This document shows positions 5,266-59,031 of a stretch of 64,000 nt of DNA, piece by piece. The notes below the pieces were generated by a model. That model made no database searches. It was given only the letters and a program-made list of their open reading frames with translations, and had not been told where the DNA came from. The position numbers were made by a program, and so were the translations under genes. Positions within the stretch are counted from its first letter, which is position 1. Each line of letters begins with the position of its first letter. Source of the stretch: Bacillota bacterium. GTDB taxonomy: Bacteria > Bacillota > Desulfotomaculia > Desulfotomaculales > Desulforudaceae. The stretch spans positions 186,001 through 250,000 of the forward strand of contig JBFLXL010000002.1 of assembly GCA_040757205.1 (NCBI GenBank), in the 5' to 3' direction.

Positions 5266-7722
5266 ATGAATAGGCCCTTGGTAATGATGGCGGTACTGTA
5301 CGGATTTGGCGTATTCCTGGCCGGGCATTTCCATCTGTACGGCGACCATCTTTTTTTATCGGTGGGGGCCGCTTTGACAGTGGCGTCCATCGCTTACTTC
5401 GCCGTCAAAAAGGCGGCGCCGGTGTTGATCCTGGCGCTGTTTGCCGTTCTTGGCGCGGCGGTGACCGGGTTGACCGTCGATCGGACCGCTTCTCCGTTGG
5501 CGGCGTGGGACAACTCCGCCGTGGTTCTGGAAGGGGCGGTGGTGAGGGACGCCGATGTCCGCCCGGACCGGGTGATTTACCTCCTCGCGGTGCACGAGGT
5601 CCGAAAGGGCAACGAGGTGATGCGTCCGGGCGGGCGCGTGGTCGTCAGCCACCGCGAACCGGACGCGGTCTACGGTTACGGCGATCTGTTGCGGACCCGG
5701 GGCGTGCTCCGGATTCCGGTGAGTCCCGGCAATCCCGGGGAGTTCGACTACCGGGCCTACCTGGAGCGCCAGGGTGTGGCCTTCAAGATGAACGTGCTCG
5801 GCACGGGCGCGATCGAGCGGATCGGTGTGGACCGGGGGAACTACGTGGTGTACCTGGCCCTGACCGCCAAGGAGAGACTGTCGGCGGGGCTGGAACGGGC
5901 GCTGGAACCCGGTGCCGCCGCCCTCGTCCGGGGTATTACGATGGGTGTGCGGGGTGAGATCGCGCCCGAGATGAACGAGGCCTTCACCGTCACGGGTGTG
6001 GTGCACATCCTCAGTGTCAGCGGACTGCACGTTGGTTTTCTGGTGGGATTGGTGCTCGTATTCACCCGCCTCGGGCGCCTGGACCCGAGGTGGACCCTGA
6101 TTATGGTGGTGGCGGTGCTGGCCTTCTACGCGGTGATGGTGGGGTTCAAACCGCCTGTTATCCGGGCTTCGGTCATGGCGCTGTTGCTGCTCGCCGCCCA
6201 CCAGATGGGACGCCTGCGGGACTGGCCCACCGCCCTGGCGCTGGCCGCGCTGGTGATCCTCCTCGGGAACCCCTTGAGCCTTTACGACCCCGGTTTTCAG
6301 CTTTCCTTCACCGCCACCTGGGGGATCCTGTACCTGGGACCCTTGATCGTCCGCGGTCTCGACCAGCTGGCGGCGGCCCGGCGCCTTTCCTGGTGGAAAC
6401 CGGCCGCCGGTTGGTTCCTGGCCGTGCCGCTGGCCGCCCAACTGGGCGTCTTCCCTCTGATCGCGTATTACTACAATCTGATTTCCCCGGTATCGTTGCC
6501 GGCCAACCTGGTGACGGTACCACTGGTCGGGCTGATCTTTGTGCTCGGTTTCATCAGCGCCCTGCTCGGCGCCTTCCTGCCGGCCGCCGCCTGGCTAACC
6601 GGACCGGCCACCGGGGCCCTGGTCGATCTTTTCCTGGCCCTGGTCAAGTTCTTTGCGGGTGTCAAAGGGGCCTATTATTACGTGCCCACGCCTCCTTTGC
6701 TGCTGGTCGGCTTCTGGTACCTGGCCTGCTGGGGGCTGGGCGCTTTTACCGGAGCCACCCCCTGGCGGGAAAGATGGCCGGGCGCGGCGGCGCTGGTGGG
6801 CGGGTCGAGGCGGCGTACTTTGGGAATGCTGGGGGTAGGCCTTTCCCTTGTTTTTGCTTTCCTGATCTGGCCCACCCAACCCTCCGGCCGGGACCACCTT
6901 GAGGTGCACTTCCTGGACGTGGGGCAGGGCGACTGCACGCTGATTCGGACCGGTACCGGTGCGACCGTCCTGGTCGACGCCGGCGGCTGGCGGGGGGAGG
7001 TGGCCGGTGAACCCGGAGCCGGGGAGAAAGTGGTGGTGCCCTACCTCCGGCGGATCGGAGTGTATGAGATTAATATCCTGGTGATCACCCACCCCCACGA
7101 CGATCACGCCGGCGGGGTCCGGGCGGTTGCCGACAAGCTCAAAGTGCGCAACGTCGTGGTGGCTCCCGACGGTGGGCGCGAGGAACTCAATCCGGCTTAT
7201 CCGAAGTTGATCGAGGAGTTAAAACAGGCCGACATTCCGGTGTTCCAGGTCTGGGCCGGGGATTGCCTGCGGGTGGACCAGCGGACTATTCTGAAGGTGC
7301 TTGCGCCCGTCTTTCCCCTGCTTTCCGGCACCCGGAGCGATTTAAACAATAACTCGGTGGTCTTGAGGCTGGACCACGGGGCCAGGAGTTTTCTATTCGC
7401 CGGTGACGTGGAGCAGGAGGGTCAGGCGCGCCTGACCCTGGGGCAGGAGGTCCGGGCGGACGTGCTGAAAGTGCCGCACCACGGCAGCGGCGCCTTCACA
7501 CCGGATTTCTTTCGGGCCGTCCGGCCGTCCGTGGCGGTGATCACGGTCGGCCGGGCGAATCCGTTCGGCCACCCCCATCCCCGCACCCTTGAAGCACTTC
7601 AGGATTTGGGTGCCGAGGTTTACCGCACCGATCTGGACGGCGCGGTGATCGTCAGGACGGACGGACATTCCCTGGAGATTGAGACCGGCCGGGAGCGGAA
7701 AGACTTGAGGCCCGCCGCTTAG
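5266..7722 (+). CDS. comEC: ComEC/Rec2 DNA uptake channel
   Basis: An 818-residue membrane protein with the three usual parts. An N-terminal DUF4131-like region (about 1-200) precedes the competence domain with multiple membrane segments (about 210-500, including VHILSVSGLHVGFLVGLVLV). The C-terminal metallo-beta-lactamase-like domain (about 550-800) carries FLDVGQGDCTLI, THPHDDHAGG, LFAGDVEQEG and VLKVPHHGS. It forms the inner-membrane channel for single-stranded DNA and may degrade the non-transported strand. ATG 5266 is chosen for its GGGGGGAGAG site. comEA lies just upstream and holA follows, the standard Firmicutes order. Full length and apparently intact. Confidence 0.95.
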   Translation: MNRPLVMMAVLYGFGVFLAGHFHLYGDHLFLSVGAALTVASIAYFAVKKAAPVLILALFAVLGAAVTGLTVDRTASPLAAWDNSAVVLEGAVVRDADVRPDRVIYLLAVHEVRKGNEVMRPGGRVVVSHREPDAVYGYGDLLRTRGVLRIPVSPGNPGEFDYRAYLERQGVAFKMNVLGTGAIERIGVDRGNYVVYLALTAKERLSAGLERALEPGAAALVRGITMGVRGEIAPEMNEAFTVTGVVHILSVSGLHVGFLVGLVLVFTRLGRLDPRWTLIMVVAVLAFYAVMVGFKPPVIRASVMALLLLAAHQMGRLRDWPTALALAALVILLGNPLSLYDPGFQLSFTATWGILYLGPLIVRGLDQLAAARRLSWWKPAAGWFLAVPLAAQLGVFPLIAYYYNLISPVSLPANLVTVPLVGLIFVLGFISALLGAFLPAAAWLTGPATGALVDLFLALVKFFAGVKGAYYYVPTPPLLLVGFWYLACWGLGAFTGATPWRERWPGAAALVGGSRRRTLGMLGVGLSLVFAFLIWPTQPSGRDHLEVHFLDVGQGDCTLIRTGTGATVLVDAGGWRGEVAGEPGAGEKVVVPYLRRIGVYEINILVITHPHDDHAGGVRAVADKLKVRNVVVAPDGGREELNPAYPKLIEELKQADIPVFQVWAGDCLRVDQRTILKVLAPVFPLLSGTRSDLNNNSVVLRLDHGARSFLFAGDVEQEGQARLTLGQEVRADVLKVPHHGSGAFTPDFFRAVRPSVAVITVGRANPFGHPHPRTLEALQDLGAEVYRTDLDGAVIVRTDGHSLEIETGRERKDLRPAA

Positions 7723-47719: not shown

Positions 47720-48331
47720 ATGCCGCAACTGCGCGTCCTGATTGCGGTCAAGGACGAGGCCGAGGCCAAGAAGCTCGGGGCCAAGCTCCTTAAAGCCGGT
47801 CATCTGGTGATCGGCCGGGTATGGGAGGCCAAGGACGTGTTGCGCCTGGCCTTTGAGACCCAGCCCGACTTGGTCTTGCTGGACCCCGCCCTCCCGGATT
47901 ACGGGGGACTGGGAGTGGCCCAGGTCATCGACGATCACCGGTTGGCCCCGATCGTATTCGTCACCGCGGACTGCACCAGGCTTGCGCAACTGTCGGGCAC
48001 GGGGTGGCTCTTCAGCTATCTGCTGGTTCCGTACAGCGATGATGATCTGTACCTGGCGGTGGAAATAGCCCGGTCCAATTTCAAGCGCCTGCTGGCCCTA
48101 GAGCAGGAAAACATGCGCCTGAAGAAGACCCTGGAGTCCAGAAAACTCGTTGAGCGGGCCAAGGGCCTGTTGGTCGAAAAGAAGGGGTTCACCGAGCCGG
48201 AGGCGTACCGGTACCTGCAGAAACTCAGCATGGACACCTGCCGGCCGCTGGCCGGAATGGCCCGGGAGGTGATTGAGAAGCTCTCCTCCGGCCAAGGGAA
48301 GAAAGGCCGGGACAAGAATCACCAACCGTAG
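47720..48331 (+). CDS. ANTAR-domain RNA-binding response regulator (copy 1)
   Basis: A 203-residue protein: receiver-like domain (about 1-120) and C-terminal ANTAR domain (about 135-190, RKLVERAKGLLVEKKGFTEP and EAYRYLQKLSMDTCRPLAGM). The phospho-acceptor Asp is retained (PDLVLLDPALPD) and the Thr (VFVTAD), but the conserved KP Lys is replaced (LLVPYSDD). ANTAR proteins bind paired six-base-loop hairpins in leader RNAs and prevent termination. It precedes the GS-paralogue leader and is probably its regulator. An extended -10 (TGATACAAT, 47682-47690) lies upstream. Confidence 0.92.
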   Translation: MPQLRVLIAVKDEAEAKKLGAKLLKAGHLVIGRVWEAKDVLRLAFETQPDLVLLDPALPDYGGLGVAQVIDDHRLAPIVFVTADCTRLAQLSGTGWLFSYLLVPYSDDDLYLAVEIARSNFKRLLALEQENMRLKKTLESRKLVERAKGLLVEKKGFTEPEAYRYLQKLSMDTCRPLAGMAREVIEKLSSGQGKKGRDKNHQP

Positions 48332-48356: not shown

Positions 48357-48386
48357 TTGCCTTTTGTCGTCTCTTCACAATATAAT
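48357..48386 (+). promoter_or_regulatory. Promoter of the GS-paralogue leader
   Basis: TTGCCT, 18 bases, TATAAT. Transcription would begin about 25 bases before the antiterminator hairpin at 48418. Confidence 0.7.
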
Positions 48387-48417: not shown

Positions 48418-48475
48418 GGGGCAACGATGTCCCAGGTGGACTCCCGTGGGGAGCCTGCTTGGGGCATTTCTTTTT
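48418..48475 (+). promoter_or_regulatory. ANTAR-type leader 1: hexaloop hairpin overlapping a terminator
   Basis: GGGGC, loop AACGAT, GTCCC (48418-48433; one G-U pair). Its 3' half is also the start of an intrinsic terminator (TGTCCCA at 48428-48434 pairing TGGGGCA at 48460-48466, inner stem CTCC/GGAG, then TTTCTTTTT). The two structures are mutually exclusive. An upstream P1 hairpin is only weakly visible (GTTA/TAAC at 48395-48411). Confidence 0.75.
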
Positions 48476-48498
48476 GAGTTGAAAAGGGGGAGTCTACT

Positions 48499-49836
48499 AT
48501 GGAAATCAACCGCCGGGCGGCCGAAGAAGTCCTGGCCCTGGCCGCGGAAACCGGTGTGAAATTCGTCCGGCTGCAGGTCACCGATTTCACCGGATCCCTC
48601 AAGAACCTGGCCATCACCGTCGAGGAGCTGAACCGCGCCCTGGAAGGCCGGCTCACTTTTGACAGCGCCATCGTCGAAGGTTTCAGCGGCAGCCGGGAAA
48701 GAGAGATCCTGCTCGTCCCCGACCCGGAAACGTTCGTGATCTTTCCCTGGCGGCCACGGGACGGGGCGGTGGCCCGATTGATCTGCCATGTGGCCGACCT
48801 GGACGGGAATCCCTATCCCATCTGTTCCCGGAGTGTACTGCGCCGGAACCTGCAAGCCCTGGGGGAGCGCGGGTGGCGGTTCCGGATCAGCGCCGAAATT
48901 GAATTCTTCCTCTTCCACGCCGGGGAACAGGGCCTGCCCGCCACGGTGACCCACGACCAGGCCGGATACTGCGACCTCGCCCCGGTGGACCTGGGCGAGA
49001 ACGCCCGGCGAGACATGGTCCTCACCCTGCAAGAAATGGGGATCAAGGTCCGGTCGTCGCACCACGAGGCCTCCCCGGGCCAGCACGAGATCGGCCTCGG
49101 TGAGGGCGAGGCGCTGGAAACGGCCGACCGGATCACCACCTTCAAGTTCGTGGTGCGGACCGTGGCCCAGCGGCACGGCCTGCACGCTTCTTTCATGCCG
49201 CGGCCGCTGGCGGGGGGGCGCGGTTCGGGAGTGAAGCTGCACCTGACCCTTTGGCGCGAAGAGCAAAACCTGTTCGCGGACGGGGATGACCTCGGCCGGT
49301 TCAGCGCCACCGCCCGCCGGTTCGCCGCCGGACTGCTCGCGCACGCGCCCGCCTTGTCGGCCGTGACCAATCCCCTGGTCAATTCCTATAAACGCTTGGG
49401 GCCGGACGGTTTTCACCCGGCCCTGGCCGCCTGGTCTTTCGACAGCCGGGCCGCCATGCTGCGCTTTCCCGCGCCGGCGGGAGGCGAGCCACATCTGTTG
49501 CTCCGCAGCCCGGACCCGACGGCCAACGCCTACGTGGCTCTGGCGGGAATCCTCGCCGCCGGCCTCGACGGGGTGGACAGCGGGCTCGAGTTGCCGGAGC
49601 CCGTACCCGGCACGGTGGACGGAGACCTGGACCGGCTCCGGGCCGCAGCGCGCATCAACGGGCTGCCCCGGCACCTGGAAGCGGCGCTTTCGGCATTTAC
49701 CACCAGCGCCGTGCTCCGCGGCGCGTTGGGGGACGAGTTTTGCCGCCGCTACGCCGAGGTCAAGGAACAGGAGTGGCTGGCTTTCCTGGCCGCGGTGCAC
49801 CCCTGGGAGATCGACACCTATCTGGCCCGTTACTAG
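48499..49836 (+). CDS. Glutamine synthetase paralogue with degenerate active site
   Basis: A 445-residue GSI-fold protein, colinear with the canonical GlnA at 52676. It keeps AEIEFFLF, SHHEASPGQHE and NSYKRL, and the Asp of LTFDSAIVEGF. Compared residue by residue, GSGMHMN becomes GSGVKLH (metal-site His to Lys), PGYEAPV becomes PDGFHPA (flap Glu lost), and VELRNPDP becomes LLLRSPDP (metal-site Glu to Leu). It is therefore unlikely to be a normal glutamine synthetase; a regulator or an enzyme for another substrate is possible. Expression is controlled by leader 1. Confidence 0.9.
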   Translation: MEINRRAAEEVLALAAETGVKFVRLQVTDFTGSLKNLAITVEELNRALEGRLTFDSAIVEGFSGSREREILLVPDPETFVIFPWRPRDGAVARLICHVADLDGNPYPICSRSVLRRNLQALGERGWRFRISAEIEFFLFHAGEQGLPATVTHDQAGYCDLAPVDLGENARRDMVLTLQEMGIKVRSSHHEASPGQHEIGLGEGEALETADRITTFKFVVRTVAQRHGLHASFMPRPLAGGRGSGVKLHLTLWREEQNLFADGDDLGRFSATARRFAAGLLAHAPALSAVTNPLVNSYKRLGPDGFHPALAAWSFDSRAAMLRFPAPAGGEPHLLLRSPDPTANAYVALAGILAAGLDGVDSGLELPEPVPGTVDGDLDRLRAAARINGLPRHLEAALSAFTTSAVLRGALGDEFCRRYAEVKEQEWLAFLAAVHPWEIDTYLARY

Positions 49837-49942: not shown

Positions 49943-51520
49943 ATGCATCTTAGTAGTGGCACCAACGCCACCGCAGCCACCACCACGAGGCTGCGCACCG
50001 GGGAAAGCAAGTGCCCCCAGAGCGGGATGTGCGTGACCTGCCTGGACGGCTGCCCCGGATTCTGCGAAATCGCGCGCTCGGCCGTGCGGGGGAAGGAATT
50101 GCTTTATCCCAAACCGTTCGGCAAGACCACCTCGGCCGGACAGAAAAAGTACCCGGTGGACTACTCGCACCTGAACATCATGGGCACCGCCGTGGGCGCG
50201 GTCGGTATTGAACCGGACCCGGACAAGGCCATCTTTCCGGCCGTGGACCTCAAAACCAGCCTGGGTGCCGGCGGCGACCTGCATTTGGATTTCCCGCTGG
50301 TCGTTCCGGCCATGGGCTCCACCGATATCGCCGCGAACAACTGGGACCACCTGGCCGCCGGCGTGGCCCTGGCCGGAGCCGGGATCCTGATCGGGGAAAA
50401 CGTTTGCGCCATGGACCCGAATTCGGAGATCAGGAACGGGCGCGTGGTGTACTCGCCGAACATGGAGGGGCGGGTGCGCGCTTTCCAGGACTGGTATCGG
50501 GGCGCGGGCTTCATCGGGGTGCAGGCCAACGTCGAGGACACCCGGCTGGGCGTGCAGGAATACTGTATCGAGAAGCTCGGCGTTGAGGTTGTGGAAATCA
50601 AGTGGGGCCAGGGGGCCAAAGACATCGGCGGCGAGGTGAAGGTGAGCAGCATCGAGCGGGCGCTCGAACTGAAAAAGCGCGGTTACATCGTCCTGCCGGA
50701 CCCGGAGGACGAAGTGGTCCAGGAGGCCTACCAGGAGGGGGCCCTGCGGGAATTCGAGCGCCACTCCCGGATCGGGATGGTGGAGTGGGAGTCCTTCGCC
50801 GAGCGGGTGGCCTCACTCCGCCAGGCGGGAGCCAAATATATTTTCTTGAAGACGGGCGCCTACCGGCCGGCCGACCTGGCCCGGGCCGTCAAGTTCGCCT
50901 CCGACGCCCGGCTGGACCTTTTAACGGTCGACGGTGCCGGCGGCGGCACCGGAATGAGCCCGTGGCGGATGATGAACGAGTGGGGGATGCCCACCCTGTA
51001 CCTGCAGGCGCTCCTGACCCGGTACTGCGACCGGCTGGCGGCGAAGGGGGCCTACATTCCGCCCGTCTGCATCGCCGGCGGTCTGACCTTGGAGGACCAC
51101 ATGTTCAAGGGCTTCGCCCTGAGCGCGCCCTACGTCAAGGCTATCGGGATGGCCCGCTCCCCGCTCGCCGCGGCCATGGTCGGCAAAACGGTGGGCGAGT
51201 CGATCAGGCAGGGGCGGGTGCTGCCCGAGTACCAGGCCTACGGGAACCGGGTCGAACGGGTTTTCATCCTGGCCACCGCGCTCCGGGCTCAGCTCGGACC
51301 CGAATACGACCGTTTGCCCGTGGGGGCGATCGGCGTCTACACCTACTTCGCCCGGCTGGCCCAGGGCCTGCGCCAGTTCATGTGCGGCGCGCGCAAGTTC
51401 GCCCTGGAGTACATCACCCGCGACGACCTGGTGGCGCTCACCCGGGAAGCGGCCGAGATCACCGGCATCACCTACCTGATGGACGCCGACGCCGCGGAAG
51501 CCGACCGGATACTGGGATAA
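49943..51520 (+). CDS. Stand-alone FMN-binding glutamate-synthase-like protein with Cys-rich N-terminus
   Basis: A 525-residue protein with the FMN-binding domain of glutamate synthase (GTAVGAVGIEPDPDKAIFPA; EIKWGQGAKDIGGEVKVSSI; TVDGAGGGTGMSPWRMMNEW). It lacks the amidotransferase and GXGXG domains and has no C-terminal 3Fe-4S cysteine cluster. The N-terminus has five cysteines in CPQSGMCVTCLDGCPGFC, which could hold a 4Fe-4S cluster. Such proteins of unknown function occur in anaerobic Firmicutes and archaea. The start is ATG 49943 behind AAAGGAGAGGGG. It probably shares the transcript of the GS paralogue. Confidence 0.85.
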   Translation: MHLSSGTNATAATTTRLRTGESKCPQSGMCVTCLDGCPGFCEIARSAVRGKELLYPKPFGKTTSAGQKKYPVDYSHLNIMGTAVGAVGIEPDPDKAIFPAVDLKTSLGAGGDLHLDFPLVVPAMGSTDIAANNWDHLAAGVALAGAGILIGENVCAMDPNSEIRNGRVVYSPNMEGRVRAFQDWYRGAGFIGVQANVEDTRLGVQEYCIEKLGVEVVEIKWGQGAKDIGGEVKVSSIERALELKKRGYIVLPDPEDEVVQEAYQEGALREFERHSRIGMVEWESFAERVASLRQAGAKYIFLKTGAYRPADLARAVKFASDARLDLLTVDGAGGGTGMSPWRMMNEWGMPTLYLQALLTRYCDRLAAKGAYIPPVCIAGGLTLEDHMFKGFALSAPYVKAIGMARSPLAAAMVGKTVGESIRQGRVLPEYQAYGNRVERVFILATALRAQLGPEYDRLPVGAIGVYTYFARLAQGLRQFMCGARKFALEYITRDDLVALTREAAEITGITYLMDADAAEADRILG

Positions 51521-51639: not shown

Positions 51640-51667
51640 TTGACACGCGGAAATACGGTCATATAAT
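51640..51667 (+). promoter_or_regulatory. Promoter of ANTAR regulator 2
   Basis: TTGACA, 16 bases, TATAAT; transcription starts about 18 bases before the P1 hairpin of leader 2. Confidence 0.8.
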
Positions 51668-51690: not shown

Positions 51691-51767
51691 GGGTACGATG
51701 AAGTATCCGGGAGAGGCGATGATGCCCTTGGCAGACCGTGGTCCGGTCTGGCGGGGCATTTATTTTT
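51691..51767 (+). promoter_or_regulatory. ANTAR-type leader 2 (P1, P2 and terminator) upstream of the ANTAR gene itself
   Basis: P1: GGGTAC, loop GATGAA, GTATCC (51691-51708). P2: AGAGGC, loop GATGAT, GCCCTT with a bulged A (51711-51729). Terminator: TGCCC/GGGCA enclosing CAGACCG-TGGTC-CGGTCTG, then TTTATTTTT (51722-51767), overlapping P2. The ANTAR gene starts about 50 bases later, so the regulator seems to control its own read-through. Confidence 0.82.
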
Positions 51768-51818
51768 GAGCCCATCCTAATTTTTAAAAATGCGTTTTCG
51801 TTCTGGGGGGTAAGGTTT

Positions 51819-52397
51819 TTGGCACTGCAGGAACGGGTGATCCTGGTGGACCCGGATACGCACGGCCGAACCAACATCAAGGGGATGCTCAGCCAGGCGG
51901 AGTACCTGGTGATCGGCGAAGCCGAGGACGGCATCACGGCCCTGAAGATGATCCGTGACCGGCAACCCGACCTGGTGTTGGCGGAGGTCTCGCTGCCGGG
52001 AGTCAGCGGCCTGGAATTGGCCCGCATCGTGCACGACGACCGCCTGGCCCCGGTCATCCTGATCTCCGGCGCCTTCGGCCGGGAGATGATGGCCCGCGTC
52101 CGGGAGGTGCGGGCGGCCGGTTTCCTGTCCAAGCCGGTGGACGAAGTCAGCCTGCTGGCCGTGGTCGAGGTGGCCCTGGCCCACTACGCCGAGGTGCTGG
52201 AGTTGGAGCAGAAACTGGTGAAACTGAAAGAGGAACTGGACACCAGGAAGGTGGTGGAGCGGGCCAAGGGCATCCTAATGTCCCAGTTCGGGCTCACGGA
52301 GGCCGAGGCTTTCCGGCGGATCCAGAAGCAGAGTATGAACCGGCGCCTCTCCATGCGGGCGGTGGCCGAGGCGATCATCCTGGCGCACAACGTCTGA
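51819..52397 (+). CDS. ANTAR-domain RNA-binding regulator with phosphomimetic receiver (copy 2)
   Basis: A 192-residue protein: receiver domain (about 1-118) and ANTAR domain (about 130-190, RKVVERAKGILMSQFGLTEA and EAFRRIQKQSMNRRLSMRAV). The phospho-acceptor position is Glu (PDLVLAEVSLPG), while Asp pair VDPD, Ser (ILISG) and Lys (LSKP) remain. A constitutively active receiver would give constant antitermination. TTG 51819 is chosen (GGGGGGTAAGG upstream); an upstream GTG 51738 lies inside the terminator. Regulates leader 3 and its own leader by inference. Confidence 0.92.
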   Translation: MALQERVILVDPDTHGRTNIKGMLSQAEYLVIGEAEDGITALKMIRDRQPDLVLAEVSLPGVSGLELARIVHDDRLAPVILISGAFGREMMARVREVRAAGFLSKPVDEVSLLAVVEVALAHYAEVLELEQKLVKLKEELDTRKVVERAKGILMSQFGLTEAEAFRRIQKQSMNRRLSMRAVAEAIILAHNV

Positions 52398-52547: not shown

Positions 52548-52639
52548 GGGTACACGGACGTACCCGCGGAAAGAGGCAATGACGCCCTTTCAAAGGCGGT
52601 GGCCAAAAGACCGCTCCTTTGACCGGGCGTTTTTGTTTG
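52548..52639 (+). promoter_or_regulatory. ANTAR-type leader 3 (P1, P2 and terminator) of glnA
   Basis: P1: GGGTAC, loop ACGGAC, GTACCC, a perfect six-base stem (52548-52565). P2: AAAGAGGC, loop AATGAC, GCCCTTT with a bulged A (52570-52590). Terminator: ACGCCC/GGGCGT, CAAAGG/CCTTTG and CGGT/ACCG, then TTTTT (52582-52634), overlapping P2. The best example of the motif in the window; glnA starts 37 bases after it. Upstream (52398-52547) only a CGACGAT/ATCGTCG dyad near 52449 is visible and no clear promoter. Confidence 0.88.
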
Positions 52640-52675: not shown

Positions 52676-54007
52676 GTGGAAACTGCGGCTAAGCAGGAAA
52701 TTCTGGAGAAGGCCAGGCGGCTCGGGGTCAAGTTTGTCCGGTTGCAGTTCACCGACATCATGGGTGTGTTGAAGAATATCGCCATCCCGGTTGATCAGCT
52801 TGACAAGGCCCTGGACGGTGAGCTGATGTTTGACGGGTCTTCGATTCACGGTTTTGCCCGGATTGAGGAATCGGATATGTATCTGCGCCCGGACCCGAAC
52901 ACCTTCGTGATCTTCCCCTGGCGGCCCCGGGACGGCGCGGTGGCGCGCCTGATTTGCGACGTCTACAATCCCGACGGCACGCCGTTCGCCGGCTGCCCGC
53001 GAAACTGCCTGCGCCGGGTGTTGGACCGGGCCAAGCAGATGGGATACACCATGCACGCCGGGCCGGAGATGGAGTTCTTCCTGTTTCACGTGGACGCCGA
53101 CGGCAAGCCTTTGCTGGAGACCCACGACAAGGCCGGCTACTTCGACCTGTCCCCGGTCGACAAGGGCGAGAACGCCCGGCGGGAGATGGTGATGGCGCTG
53201 CAGGAGATGGGCTTTGAGATTGAAACCTCGCACCACGAAGTGGCGCCCGGACAGCACGAGATCGACTTCAAGCACTCGGACGCGCTTTCCATCGCCGACA
53301 AAATCGTCACCTTCAAGTTCGTGGTCCGGACGTTGGCGCAGCGTCACGGTCTGCACGCGACCTTTATGCCCAAGCCGGTTTACGGGATCAACGGTTCCGG
53401 GATGCACATGAACCAGTCCCTGTTCCGGGGCGAGGAAAACGCGTTCCACGATCCGGCGAAGCCTGACGGCCTGAGCGCCGAGGCTTACTACTACATCGGC
53501 GGGCTCCTGAAGCACGCCCGGTCGATGACGGCGATCACCAACTCGACGGTGAATTCCTACAAGCGGCTGGTACCGGGCTACGAAGCGCCGGTGTACGTGG
53601 CTTGGGCCGAAGGGAACCGCAGCGCGCTCATCCGGATACCGCAGAAGAGGGGCTTATCCACCCGCGTGGAACTGCGCAACCCGGACCCGGCCTGCAACCC
53701 CTACCTGGCGCTGACGGTGAACCTGGCGGCCGGCCTGGAGGGGATCACGGAAAAGATCGACCCGCCGCCGCGGTTCCCGATCAATATCTACCACATCACC
53801 GACGCGGAACGGGCACAGCGGGGCATCACCAGCCTGCCGGGCAGCCTGGAGGAAGCGCTCGGTGAACTAAAGGCCGACCCGGTGCTGCGTGAGGCTCTGG
53901 GCGAGCACATTTACACCAAGTTCACCGAGGCCAAGACGGCGGAGTGGAACGAGTACCGGATTCAGATCACGCCGTGGGAAGTAGACCGCTACCTGGTCAA
54001 CTACTAG
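52676..54007 (+). CDS. glnA: Glutamine synthetase type I
   Basis: A 443-residue GSI-alpha enzyme with all expected motifs: ELMFDGSSIHGFARIEESDM, AGPEMEFFLF, SHHEVAPGQHEIDF, NGSGMHMNQSL, LVPGYEAPVYVAWAEGNRSA and RVELRNPDPACNPYLAL. No adenylylation tyrosine loop of the proteobacterial kind is expected in this subgroup. The start is GTG 52676 (MVETAAKQEI) behind AAAGGG. Expression depends on leader 3. The next three genes encode a glutamate synthase, completing the GS-GOGAT cycle. Confidence 0.96.
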   Translation: METAAKQEILEKARRLGVKFVRLQFTDIMGVLKNIAIPVDQLDKALDGELMFDGSSIHGFARIEESDMYLRPDPNTFVIFPWRPRDGAVARLICDVYNPDGTPFAGCPRNCLRRVLDRAKQMGYTMHAGPEMEFFLFHVDADGKPLLETHDKAGYFDLSPVDKGENARREMVMALQEMGFEIETSHHEVAPGQHEIDFKHSDALSIADKIVTFKFVVRTLAQRHGLHATFMPKPVYGINGSGMHMNQSLFRGEENAFHDPAKPDGLSAEAYYYIGGLLKHARSMTAITNSTVNSYKRLVPGYEAPVYVAWAEGNRSALIRIPQKRGLSTRVELRNPDPACNPYLALTVNLAAGLEGITEKIDPPPRFPINIYHITDAERAQRGITSLPGSLEEALGELKADPVLREALGEHIYTKFTEAKTAEWNEYRIQITPWEVDRYLVNY

Positions 54008-54073
54008 AAAACGGTCGCCGCCGCGGCCGAGCACGCCGGCAGACCCGGCGCCTTAAAGAAAGTGGGTGAAGAG

Positions 54074-55165
54074 ATGCGGGAAGGAATGGTGCGGATTCCT
54101 TCGGGTTGCGCGATCTCCGGCATTATGAGCACGAAGGGAATCCGTTTCAACGGCGAGGCCATTACCAGATCTATCGCCTGCATGCACGAGCGTTCCAACG
54201 GTTTGGGGGGCGGGTTTGCCGCCTACGGGATCTATCCTGAGTACCGTGACCTTTACGCCCTGCATTTGATGTATGAAACCCCGCAGGCGCGCGTGGACAC
54301 CGAGGAAAACCTGCGCAGCCATTTCAACGTGGCCCAGTCCGAACCGATCCCGACGCGGCCGTTGCCCGAGATCGGGGAGGCGCCCTTGTTGTGGCGTTAT
54401 TTTGTCCGCCCCGTGCGGGAAGACGGGGCGAGCGGGCTTTGGGAGGACGACGACTACGTCACCACCTTCGTGATGACGGTGAACCGGGAGGTTCCCGGCG
54501 CGTTCGTGTTTTCGTCCGGCAAGAACATGGGCGTATTCAAGGGCGTGGGCTACCCCGAGGACATCGCCCGCTATTACCGTCTGGAGGAGTACGAAGGCTA
54601 CATGTGGGTGGCGCACGGCCGCTTCCCGACCAACACCCCGGGCTGGTGGGGCGGGGCCCACCCGCTGGGGGTGCTCGACTGGTCGGTGGTCCACAACGGG
54701 GAAATCTCCTCCTACGGCATCAACAAGCGCTACCTGGAAATGTTCGGCTACTGCCTGGAACTGCAGACCGACACCGAGGTGATCGCCTACCTGTTCGACC
54801 TTTTGCACCGGCGCCACGGCATCCCTCTGGACCTGGTGTGCCGGGCCCTGGCGCCGCCTTTTTGGAAGGCCATCGACCGGATGGACGACCGCGAGCGGGA
54901 ACTTTATACCGCCCTGCGCCGGGTTTACGGCCCGGCGATGTTAAACGGCCCGTTCAGCGTGATTGTGGCCTTTCAGGGCGCCATGGTCGGCCTCAACGAC
55001 CGGATCAAGCTGCGGCCCATGGTGACCGGCAAAAAGGGGGACCTCATCCTGATGGGCAGCGAGGAAAGCGCCATCCGGGTGATTGCCGGGGACCTGGACG
55101 AAGTGGGGAGCATCCGGGCCGGAGAAATGGCCGTCGCCCGGCTGGAAGAAGGGGTGGTCGCATGA
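54074..55165 (+). CDS. Glutamate synthase, class II glutamine amidotransferase subunit (archaeal-type, split)
   Basis: A 363-residue Ntn-hydrolase-type amidotransferase. The catalytic Cys is in RIPSGCAISGIMSTKG, near residue 12, so a short propeptide must be removed. Other motifs: MHERSNGLGGGFAAYGIY, WVAHGRFPTNTPGWWGGAHP and VHNGEISSYGINKRYLEM. In split archaeal-type GOGAT this subunit liberates ammonia from glutamine. The start is uncertain (ATG 54074, GTG 54062 or ATG 54086). The stop overlaps the next gene (ATGA), linking translation with the synthase subunit. Confidence 0.9.
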   Translation: MREGMVRIPSGCAISGIMSTKGIRFNGEAITRSIACMHERSNGLGGGFAAYGIYPEYRDLYALHLMYETPQARVDTEENLRSHFNVAQSEPIPTRPLPEIGEAPLLWRYFVRPVREDGASGLWEDDDYVTTFVMTVNREVPGAFVFSSGKNMGVFKGVGYPEDIARYYRLEEYEGYMWVAHGRFPTNTPGWWGGAHPLGVLDWSVVHNGEISSYGINKRYLEMFGYCLELQTDTEVIAYLFDLLHRRHGIPLDLVCRALAPPFWKAIDRMDDRERELYTALRRVYGPAMLNGPFSVIVAFQGAMVGLNDRIKLRPMVTGKKGDLILMGSEESAIRVIAGDLDEVGSIRAGEMAVARLEEGVVA

Positions 55166-56760
55166 GCAACTACCTGCCGCCCGAATACCTGGTGCGCATT
55201 GACGAGGGCCGCTGCCGGCGCTGCGGGGAGTGTGTCCGCGGGTGCGGCTTCGGGACCTTGGCGTTCGCGCACGGTGCCTGGAGAGACGCCATGGGCGTTT
55301 TCAAGCACGGTCAGGGCGACTTGCAGCAAGTGCTCGCCCGGATCAGGGAAAACGTTACCGACCGGGTGGTCGCCGACCACCACAAGTGTGTGCAGTGCCA
55401 CTACTGCGTGAGCCACTGTCCGGAGGGCGCCGTCAGCGTCCAACCGAACCCCCTGGCCTACCGGGGGAACCATCACTGGCGGCCGGAATACCTGAAAAAC
55501 ATCTGGCGGCAAGCAAACACCGGCGGCATGGTGTTGACCGGCGCCGGCAACGACAAGGCCTACTTCAGCTACTTTGACCACATGGTGCTGGACGCCTGTC
55601 AGGTGACCAACCCGTCCATCGACCCCCTGCGGGAGCCGATGGAGCTGCGGACCTACCTGGGGGCGCGGCCGGACGGGCTTGAACTCGAACCGGGGCCGGG
55701 GCCCGGGGGGGCCGTGCTCAAAACCAGGCTCGCCCCGGCGGTCCGCCTGGACACCCCGCTGGTCTTCCCGGCCATGTCCTACGGGGCGATCAGCCTGAAC
55801 GCCCAAAAGGCGCTGGCCCGGGCCGCCAAGGCTTGCGGCGTCGTGATGAACACCGGCGAGGGCGGCATGCACGAGGACCTTTACCCCTTCGCCGATTGGA
55901 TGATCGTCCAGGTGGCCTCGGGCCGCTTCGGGGTCAACCCGGGTTACCTGCGGCGCGGCGCCGCGGTGGAGATCAAGATCGGGCAGGGGGCCAAGCCGGG
56001 CATCGGGGGGCATCTTCCCGGGGAGAAAGTGGACGAGGGCGTGTCCCAGACCCGGATGATCCCGGTGGGCAGCGACGCCCTGTCCCCGGCGCCGCACCAC
56101 GACATATACTCCATCGAGGACCTGTCCCAGCTGATCTACGCCCTGAAGGAGGCCACCGAGTACACGAAGCCGGTGTCGGTGAAGATCGCGGCGGTGCACA
56201 ACGTGGCCGCCATCGCCTCCGGCGTCGCCCGGGCCGGGGCCGACATCATCACGGTCGACGGGTTCCGGGGCGGCACGGGGGCCACGCCGCTGGCCATCCG
56301 GGACCACGTCGGGATTCCGGTCGAGATGGCGCTCGCCGCGGTCGACGACCGGCTGCGCCAGGAGGGCATCAGAAACCACGTTTCGCTGGTGGTTTCCGGC
56401 GGCATCCGCCACAGCGGGGACGTGGCCAAGGCAATCGCCCTGGGGGCCGACGCGGTGGCGATCGGCACGGCCGCCCTGATCGCCATGGGCTGCCGTCTCT
56501 GCCAGAAGTGCTATACGGGCAACTGCAGCTGGGGGATCACCACCCAGAAACCCCATTTGACCCAACGGCTTGACCCGGACCGGGCGGCCGAGAACCTGAC
56601 CAACCTGATCCGGGGCTGGTCGCTGGAACTAAAGGAGATCTTGGGGGCGCTCGGGCTCAACGCTGTGGAAAGCCTGCGGGGCAGCCGGCTCCGGCTGCGC
56701 GGCGTCGGCCTGCAGGAAAGCGACCTGCGGGTGCTGGGGATCAAGAATGCGGGCATGTAA
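55162..56760 (+). CDS. Glutamate synthase FMN/Fe-S subunit with N-terminal ferredoxin domain (archaeal-type)
   Basis: A 532-residue protein. Two N-terminal 4Fe-4S motifs (CRRCGECVRGC; CVQCHYCVSHCPEG) precede an FMN-binding synthase domain (FPAMSYGAISLNAQKALARA; KIGQGAKPGIGGHLPGEKV; TVDGFRGGTGATPLAIRDHV) and a cluster region (GCRLCQKCYTGNCSWG). It makes glutamate from 2-oxoglutarate and ammonia, with electrons probably from ferredoxin. ATG 55162 overlaps the previous stop; a much longer in-frame opening upstream is antisense-free noise in the amidotransferase gene and was rejected. Confidence 0.92.
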   Translation: MSNYLPPEYLVRIDEGRCRRCGECVRGCGFGTLAFAHGAWRDAMGVFKHGQGDLQQVLARIRENVTDRVVADHHKCVQCHYCVSHCPEGAVSVQPNPLAYRGNHHWRPEYLKNIWRQANTGGMVLTGAGNDKAYFSYFDHMVLDACQVTNPSIDPLREPMELRTYLGARPDGLELEPGPGPGGAVLKTRLAPAVRLDTPLVFPAMSYGAISLNAQKALARAAKACGVVMNTGEGGMHEDLYPFADWMIVQVASGRFGVNPGYLRRGAAVEIKIGQGAKPGIGGHLPGEKVDEGVSQTRMIPVGSDALSPAPHHDIYSIEDLSQLIYALKEATEYTKPVSVKIAAVHNVAAIASGVARAGADIITVDGFRGGTGATPLAIRDHVGIPVEMALAAVDDRLRQEGIRNHVSLVVSGGIRHSGDVAKAIALGADAVAIGTAALIAMGCRLCQKCYTGNCSWGITTQKPHLTQRLDPDRAAENLTNLIRGWSLELKEILGALGLNAVESLRGSRLRLRGVGLQESDLRVLGIKNAGM

Positions 56761-56830
56761 TGGTGGTTGGTGGTCGGTGGTTGGTGGTCGGTGAGTAGTC
56801 AGTGGTTTTCACACTGACGACCGACGACCG
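56761..56830. repeat. GGTGGTCGGTGGT-type simple repeat
   Basis: Repeats of TGGTTGGTGGTCGG followed by GACCGACGACCG in opposite sense between the two glutamate-synthase genes; a low-complexity inverted repeat of a kind seen in many bacteria. Confidence 0.65.
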
Positions 56831-56898
56831 AATATAAAGATCCGAAATACACTTTCCGGCACGCAGGCGTGCCGGCTAGGAGAAGGAGGGATGCGCCG

Positions 56899-57639
56899 GT
56901 GCTGCGGATCGACGCTCAAGGAATGCACTACCGGCAGCTCAACCAGCGAATCCGGGAGGCGATCAGGGCCGGGGAAACCGACTTCCGGCTGGAAAACGTA
57001 AACGGCCAGCGGTACATCGGTACCGGGGTGGAGGTCCCCGGCGTGCGCATCGTTATCAACGGCGTGCCGGGAAACGACCTGGCCGCGTTTATGAACGGTC
57101 CGGCGATCACCGTGAAGGGCAACGCCCAGGACGGGGTGGGCAACACCATGAATTCGGGGACGGTGGTGGTCCACGGCAGCGCGGGGGACGTCCTCGGGTA
57201 CGGGATGCGCGGGGGCGGGCTTTTTATCCGTGGGAACGTTGGTTACCGGGTGGGCATCCACATGAAGGAATACCAGAACCAGGTGCCCGTGATCGTCGTC
57301 GGGGGCACGGCGGGCGCCTTTTTCGGGGAATACATGGCCGGCGGCCGCTTGGTGCTCCTGGGACTGGACCGGGCGGAGGGCGAACCCCTGGCCGGGGACT
57401 ACCTGGGGACCGGCATGCACGGTGGAGTGATCTACCTCCGGGGCCGTCCGGAAGAGCACGCCCTGGGCAAAGAAGTGCGGCTTTTCCCGCTGGATGAGGC
57501 GGACCGGCGGTTCCTGGACCCGCTCCTGGACGAGTTTTGCCGGCACTTCGGCCGGGACCCGGCCGCCGTCCGCGGCGCCGAATTCCACAAGCTGATTCCG
57601 GTGTCCCACCGCCCGTACGGGCGGCTGTACACCCATTAG
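56899..57639 (+). CDS. Glutamate synthase GXGXG-domain subunit (archaeal-type)
   Basis: A 246-residue protein with the GltB C-terminal beta-helix repeats (YIGTGVEVPGVRIVINGVPG; ITVKGNAQDGVGNTMNSGTV; GDVLGYGMRGGGLFIRGNVG; GGTAGAFFGEYMAGGRLVLL). The subunit supports the ammonia channel in split GOGAT. The start is GTG 56899 behind GAAGGAGGG, 138 bases after the synthase subunit with a repeat between. It closes the nitrogen island; a hairpin terminator follows. Confidence 0.88.
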   Translation: MLRIDAQGMHYRQLNQRIREAIRAGETDFRLENVNGQRYIGTGVEVPGVRIVINGVPGNDLAAFMNGPAITVKGNAQDGVGNTMNSGTVVVHGSAGDVLGYGMRGGGLFIRGNVGYRVGIHMKEYQNQVPVIVVGGTAGAFFGEYMAGGRLVLLGLDRAEGEPLAGDYLGTGMHGGVIYLRGRPEEHALGKEVRLFPLDEADRRFLDPLLDEFCRHFGRDPAAVRGAEFHKLIPVSHRPYGRLYTH

Positions 57640-58664: not shown

Positions 58665-58845
58665 TAGCACATAAAGGACGAGCAGGTGCCCCTTTACCGG
58701 GGGATAATAGGGAATCAGGTGCGATTCCTGAGCAGTCCCGCTACTGTATGCGCTGAGTCGCCCCCCAGGACGCCACCGGCAATCCGGGAAGGCGGGTGTG
58801 GCGACGATGACCGCGAGCCAGGAGACCTGCCTGCTTTGTCGGTGC
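58665..58845 (+). ncRNA. Cobalamin riboswitch
   Basis: The conserved elements occur in order: AGCAGGTGCC (58681 onwards), GGGAATCAGGTGCGATTCC, the B12 box AGCAGTCCCGCTACTG and the 3' element GCCAGGAGACCTGCC (58817 onwards). It lies in the metE leader and ends before a terminator at 58972, so cobalamin should switch metE off. Confidence 0.93.
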
Positions 58846-58971
58846 TCCTTTATTTGCCTCCGGTCGAGGGGCTGGGGAGCAGCGTGTTCGAAAAACCAAG
58901 GACTCTCATCCGTGCGTCTGCCCGGAATGTACGTGCGCAGGCAGCGGGAGAGGCGGGATTTTGCATGCTGG

Positions 58972-59005: not shown

Positions 59006-59031
59006 AATTCTGTGACGGGAGATGGTTGCAG

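Follow-up and report, generated by a model that had tools for sequence, protein, structure and literature searches.

Pseudo-enzymes with the glutamine synthetase (GS) fold are known in vertebrates, among them lengsin of the vertebrate lens, which is reported to have the GS fold without GS activity. In bacteria, glutamine synthetase I-alpha (GlnA), found in Bacillus and Paenibacillus, also binds regulators, as the titles of the structures 7tfa (GS with a GlnR peptide) and 4s0r (GS with TnrA) show. According to passages of two papers, ANTAR proteins with pseudo-receivers may be under the control of a partner protein (AmiC-AmiR, PMC3369931; NasS-NasT, PMC3795266). A section of the first of these papers, published in 2012, reports that in D. 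reducens and D. acetoxidans glutamine/glutamate synthase genes are preceded by leaders made of two hairpins and terminators, and the ANTAR regulon is thus already known as a prediction (PMC3369931). With the structure paper on EutV of 2022 came a new definition of the minimal ANTAR site, a single hexaloop; the paper said that single-hexaloop sites might exist, and it describes antitermination by EutV in the transcribing polymerase as requiring two hexaloops (PMC8934654).

The window, a stretch of 64,000 nucleotides of a Bacillota genome (assembly GCA_040757205.1, contig JBFLXL010000002.1), contains a gene encoding a pseudo-glutamine synthetase (pGS; 48499..49836, + strand), which shows the GSI fold and lacks the flap Glu, the His and Glu of the n2 metal site, and S53. 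Its ORF is open, with no internal stops, and encodes 445 amino acids; both Pfam domains, Gln-synt_N and Gln-synt_C, match it. Against the NCBIfam model of type I glutamate-ammonia ligase (GlnA) pGS reaches 372.5 bits, below the cut-off of 429.15, and the neighbouring GlnA reaches 572.4. In the alignment with this GlnA (GTG start at 52676; residue numbers for both proteins are those of Salmonella GS), pGS shows H269K (GSGMH to GSGVK), E327F in the flap (PGYEAP to PDGFHP) and E357L (VELR to LLLR), the three substitutions that a preliminary description of this DNA had claimed, and the n2 metal ligands E129/H269/E357 read E/K/L. A fourth loss, which had been overlooked there and is clade-wide, is that of S53 (FDGSSI to FDSAIV), and the adjoining D50 is retained. 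The fold had also been held to be probably intact, and the pGS model superposes on the GS of P. polymyxa (7tfa_B) with a Z of 49.2 and an rmsd of 2.3 A over 419 aligned residues; in the model the fold is intact, and the missing part would be the catalytic chemistry. Among the weak matches to pGS is PDB 2j9i (E 1e-7), which we take to be lengsin. In the whole genome there are three GS genes, none of them outside this region: pGS, GlnA (52676..54007, + strand), a canonical GSI with complete catalytic residues, and a third gene just beyond the window end. There, at C2:250307-251635 (L001), a second active GS class is found, with Ala for N264 in 30/30 of its group; throughout the order it is maintained alongside the N264 class.

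Sixty relatives were searched, which gave 30 best loci, and the neighbourhoods of 40 pGS genes were then read. E357 is lost in all 40, where it is replaced by Val, Leu, Ile, Thr or Ala, and S53 is also lost in 40/40. E327 is lost in 39 loci, and the lone remaining Glu (L060) may be misaligned; H269 is lost in 26 and kept in 14. The exact replacements K (269) and F (327) are specific to the family, and what is constant across the clade is the loss itself. By contrast, the 59 canonical GS from the same loci show E327, E357, H269 and all the other metal ligands in 59/59, and S53 in 58/59. The losses are thus not a matter of chance: one set of functional classes is missing from the whole clade, and canonical paralogues at the same loci retain it. 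Retained in pGS are D50, E212 and G265 (40/40 each), E131 (39/40), most of the n1-metal ligands, the arginines of the glutamate pocket (R321 and R339 in 40/40, R359 in 39/40) and the W-E...Y-L residues of the C-terminus; of the 191 canonical GS invariants, 107 are each present in 90 percent or more of the pGS. In the tree, a branch with SH-aLRT 100 separates the 40 pGS from the other sequences, so the conserved clade that the preliminary description had proposed to look for exists, with the same class of losses. In a larger tree, flagged for long branches (L094) and from which the 40-row pGS group is independent, 49 rows lacking the flap Glu are supported as a clade (99-100 SH-aLRT for the pGS clade) with the 40-row pGS nested inside, and five relatives (Thermincola, UBA2598 and others) are the sister group to pGS, with S53 and E327 lost and E357 kept. 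The basal Thermincola-type relatives, drawn from a phylum-level sample, lack S53 and E327 only and show all six metal ligands. Judging from these sister sequences, the losses look stepwise, with the flap and S53 going first, the n2 Glu next and the His last. The pGS of family f17 (G042 and G061) shows E129A, E131D, E212G, E220R, H269S and loss of R359, that is, nearly all metal ligands gone; it is open in both genomes, with 67 percent identity between them, and lies between ANT1 and ORF525 (described below). The pGS of G048 and G087 shows milder additional decay. A separate GS-like paralogue, perhaps another pseudo-GS, with E129K, E131G, E220K, E327A and E357 kept, is found at about 7703-9004 of L222 (G053:C1).

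Directly upstream of pGS, in 39/40 loci, is ANT1 (47720..48331, + strand), a gene encoding an ANTAR protein with a degenerate receiver, which has neither the acidic pair nor the beta5 Lys. Downstream of pGS, and probably in one transcription unit with it, is ORF525 (49943..51520, + strand), encoding an FMN glutamate-synthase-like protein with an N-terminal Cys cluster. It is followed by ANT2 (51738..52397, + strand), which encodes a second ANTAR protein with the receiver Asp changed to Glu and adjoins the active glnA, and by a split GOGAT (54062..57639, + strand) formed by a class-II amidotransferase (54062-55165), a ferredoxin-GltB core (55162-56760) and a GXGXG part (56869-57639). The order ANT1, pGS, ORF525, ANT2, GlnA, a second GlnA in some, and GOGAT parts is conserved across the taxonomic order, with variations. 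Across 113 genomes of the order and class, pGS in any state is present in about 74, ANT1 in 78 and ORF525 in 67, counts whose score cut-offs were judged by eye and which are uncorrected for shared ancestry. Within the same limits, ANT1 accompanies pGS in 73 of the 74 pGS genomes, which bears out the co-location with ANTAR regulators that the preliminary description had noticed; ORF525 follows more loosely, in 63/74, and ANT1 is present in every genome with ORF525. ANT1 is found without pGS in five genomes: two contain broken remnants, two clean deletions and one probably a contig break. In G006 the ANT1-pGS-ORF525 block is absent as a unit and pabC is directly followed by ANT2-glnA. In G074 and G026 only pGS is deleted, and ANT1, the hairpin leader and ORF525 are still there, with the leader directly before ORF525; G106 shows pGS and its hairpin without an adjacent ANT1. 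The acidic residue 11, Asp54 and Lys104 occur together in 0/40 ANT1 receivers, and Asp54 alone in 24/40. ANT2 receivers are likewise degenerate, with no pGS adjoining. ORF525, previously called a GOGAT-like orphan, is no orphan in general, as it has relatives in many phyla. Several of these relatives from other phyla are also near ANTAR-domain genes (L099, L101, L104, L106, L134 and L149), and the link between ANTAR genes and ORF525 may be older than pGS. In L228, L231, L232 and L037, ORF525 is swapped in place for a protein that shares only about 40 percent identity with it. In the window, two similar intergenic hairpin pairs with loops ACAGTC/ACTGTC, possibly a repeat element, flank ORF525 at about 49874 and 51541. 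The ANT1 of G047 (L052, about 5444-6039) is apparently split by a frameshift, and the adjoining pGS is intact. Further downstream, the window contains a cobalamin riboswitch (58667-58848, 120.8 bits) before an ORF at 59026 which, by eye, resembles metE.

The leader of pGS shows a promoter-like site, TTGCCT-18-TATAAT (48357..48386, + strand), whose TATAAT recurs in the leader alignment, and, about 30 bases after the TATAAT in the window, the hairpin GGGGC-AACGAT-GTCCC (48418..48433, + strand), with a single ANTAR-type hexaloop (A1, G4). The terminator (48427..48476, + strand) overlaps with its 5' arm the 3' arm of this hairpin, so that the two are mutually exclusive. The typical form, GGGGC-AANGNC-GTCCC, is present in 38/40 loci (33 by pattern and five by eye), and in these 38 leaders a hexaloop with A1 and G4 lies on a stem overlapping the terminator, as is characteristic of ANTAR target RNAs. 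The two hexaloops of the usual ANTAR site are found in the glnA and ANT2 leaders and not in that of pGS, which shows one conserved hairpin. In the leader alignment, this hairpin is paired in 165/165 cells, a count partly given by construction because rows were chosen by the hairpin pattern, and the terminator helix shows changes on both sides at 10/12 pairs, a count free of such construction. The pattern RGGGCAANGNNGTCCY occurs once in the genome, at the pGS leader; since a control pattern in reverse is likewise found once, the motif by itself is nothing rare, and the weight lies on its fixed position before pGS in 38/40 loci. A scan for pairs of hairpins passed over this leader, which inspection showed to have one hairpin. 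Because this leader directly precedes ORF525 where pGS is deleted, it seems to govern pGS and ORF525 as a unit, presumably via ANT1.

Two-hairpin ANTAR target RNAs are found elsewhere in the same regulon. The ANT2-glnA unit shows a promoter-like site, TTGACA-16-TATAAT (51640..51667, + strand), followed by a two-hairpin site before ANT2 (51691..51728, + strand, 20.8 bits); the glnA leader contains another (52548..52588, + strand, 35.9 bits), the P2 of which is overlapped by the glnA terminator (52581..52635, + strand). In the loci examined, a covariance model derived from leaders of glnA places such sites before 41 active GS genes, 21 ANT2 and nine GOGAT, 13 of the sites found having served in building it. 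A third ANTAR site of this genome, which is weak, is before glnK-amtB (gene names assigned by eye; L235, C4 about 201890-201928, minus strand) and extends the ANTAR regulon of the genome.

From its residues, pGS is in all likelihood a catalytically dead member of the GSI family: it should be capable of neither phosphoryl transfer nor deprotonation of ammonium, given the loss across the clade of S53, the flap Glu and the n2 Glu, and of the n2 His in most members. The preliminary description had left room for a ligase of a different amine. In GlnA3, GlnA4 and PauA7 a W or F replaces E327 (PMC5403932, PMC6529630), and pGS, with F in the window, might likewise be an active ligase whose flap change opens the ammonium site; the basal relatives, with their six metal ligands intact, would agree with this. 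However, ligases of this type retain the metal ligands, including H269 (PMC5403932, PMC6529630), and so do two annotated controls, a GlnT and a GS-family protein (L154, L155), which show all six with the flap Glu lost, whereas pGS lacks E357 everywhere, H269 in most and nearly all ligands in one family. It also retains D50 and usually Y179, unlike the known ligases, and its surrounding genes are those of regulation and nitrogen assimilation. Because both controls retain the six ligands, the losses in pGS speak for a dead enzyme, and a ligase for another amine is disfavoured and very improbable. Even less credible is a functionless duplicate drifting to loss. pGS does evolve faster than GlnA, and copies are broken or deleted in a few genomes (G053, G102, G074 and G026), but its dN/dS of 0.07-0.21 (0.04-0.085 for GlnA) indicates purifying selection, its ORFs are intact in many families of the order, it has residues of its own fixed in the clade (E43, S56, C158 and L309) and its leader is conserved.

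Two other readings give a dead pGS a protein partner different from ANT1. One makes it a partner of ORF525, perhaps a subunit with a docking or a regulatory role in the FMN glutamate-synthase-like enzyme, as would suit two genes adjoining on the same strand in most loci, found together in 63/74 pGS genomes and missing together, with ANT1, in G006. It is improbable, since relatives of ORF525 are common in phyla where no pGS adjoins them, 11 pGS genomes have no close ORF525, some of them with the 40 percent identical replacement, and ORF525 persists in the two genomes where pGS is deleted. The main rival is a role with the active GlnA, in which pGS would enter mixed dodecamers or bind GlnA, tuning its activity or feedback inhibition, and would not act on ANT1. 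Partner-dependent pseudo-subunits are common in general, active GS genes are within a few kb of pGS at most loci, D50 and the C-terminal residues are retained, and the pGS fold superposes on a dodecameric GS. Against it, pGS is apparently co-transcribed with ORF525 and not with glnA, having its own promoter-like site and leader, its near-perfect companion is ANT1, active GS is also found where pGS is absent, and the rate of pGS evolution exceeds that of GlnA. On balance this role is rather unlikely, though less so than that with ORF525.

The regulatory reading, in which a dead GSI has come to serve the nitrogen regulon as a regulatory subunit and is possibly the nitrogen-sensing partner of ANT1, is favoured because the tightest companion of pGS is ANT1 and not ORF525; it is given a probability of about 0.5. 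That pGS is part of the ANT1 regulatory unit is probable, and that it is the ligand-sensing partner of ANT1 is a nearly balanced question, leaning slightly to the negative. Of the interpretation given in the preliminary description, a dedicated partner or regulatory pseudo-enzyme, the conserved clade, the fold and the tie to ANTAR genes have held, and the other-amine ligase has not. In the proposed mechanism, glutamine or glutamate (or a nucleotide) would be bound in the former active site, and pGS would hold or release ANT1 according to its ligand state, as AmiC does AmiR. Freed ANT1 would antiterminate the pGS-ORF525 leader, and ANT1 or ANT2 those of glnA, GOGAT and glnK-amtB. A sensor of glutamine or glutamate suits pGS because the glutamate pocket is retained, with the n2 site and the flap dead, and the genomes that have lost pGS but still have ANT1 fit a dispensable brake. 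Several observations count against this reading. The circuit can run without pGS, as G074 and G026 show; ligand binding looks doubtful in the pGS of G042 and G061, where R359 and most n1 ligands are lost, and this near-total loss suggests that pGS can do without a bound ligand in some lineages; ANT2 receivers are degenerate and have no adjoining pGS; G106 has pGS and hairpin without an adjacent ANT1; and EutV needs two hexaloops (PMC8934654), whereas the pGS leader shows a single conserved one.

In the open-licence full texts, which are weak evidence on this point, no described bacterial pseudo-GS and no GS-like gene of this kind in Desulfotomaculum was found, and the word 'synthetase' is absent from the main text of the 2012 ANTAR target paper (PMC3369931). 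Pairs of a sensor and an ANTAR protein are already known; a bacterial pseudo-GS family with a single-hexaloop leader and a fixed place next to an ANTAR gene could not be found in the open literature searched. GS, a textbook enzyme, has a second task in Bacillus, that of a regulator, and here both jobs appear to be split, the active copies being enzymatic and the dead copy accompanying an RNA antiterminator. The surviving intermediates (flap only, flap and metal Glu, nearly all ligands lost) make the route from enzyme to pseudo-enzyme reconstructable. pGS is also a candidate signal input for the ANTAR control of glnA, the leader predictions of 2012 having come, in the relevant section, without a sensor (PMC3369931), and its leader is a natural example of the single-hexaloop kind whose existence had been suggested (PMC8934654). 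A tentative proposal is that the GS fold serves as a dedicated nitrogen sensor controlling an ANTAR antiterminator via a single-hexaloop leader; if so, the sensor/ANTAR pairs would gain a new type, and bacteria would have a pseudo-GS family of their own.

Compared with the known systems, pGS resembles I-alpha GlnA in fold, length, domains and many invariants, and differs from it in lacking S53, E327 and E357 throughout the clade and H269 mostly, in scoring below the GlnA cut-off and in being an extra copy beside an ANTAR gene. Like the ligases GlnA3, GlnA4, PauA7 and GMAS, it has an apolar residue for the flap Glu, but these enzymes retain the metal ligands and are catalytic, whereas pGS loses ligands and retains D50. 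Lengsin differs from pGS in being eukaryotic, distant in sequence and free of any link to RNA antitermination. The Desulfotomaculum ANTAR target RNAs of 2012 (PMC3369931) differ from the pGS leader, which has the single conserved hexaloop hairpin. The closest likeness in arrangement is to AmiC-AmiR and NasS-NasT, where, as in ANT1-pGS, a receiver-like ANTAR gene adjoins a repurposed metabolic fold, there a small-molecule-binding protein (PMC3795266). As in the AmiC-AmiR type, the partner gene is adjacent and co-occurring (39/40 loci and 73/74 genomes); in contrast to both pairs, the partner fold of ANT1 is that of GS, and the pairing is known here from gene adjacency and co-occurrence.
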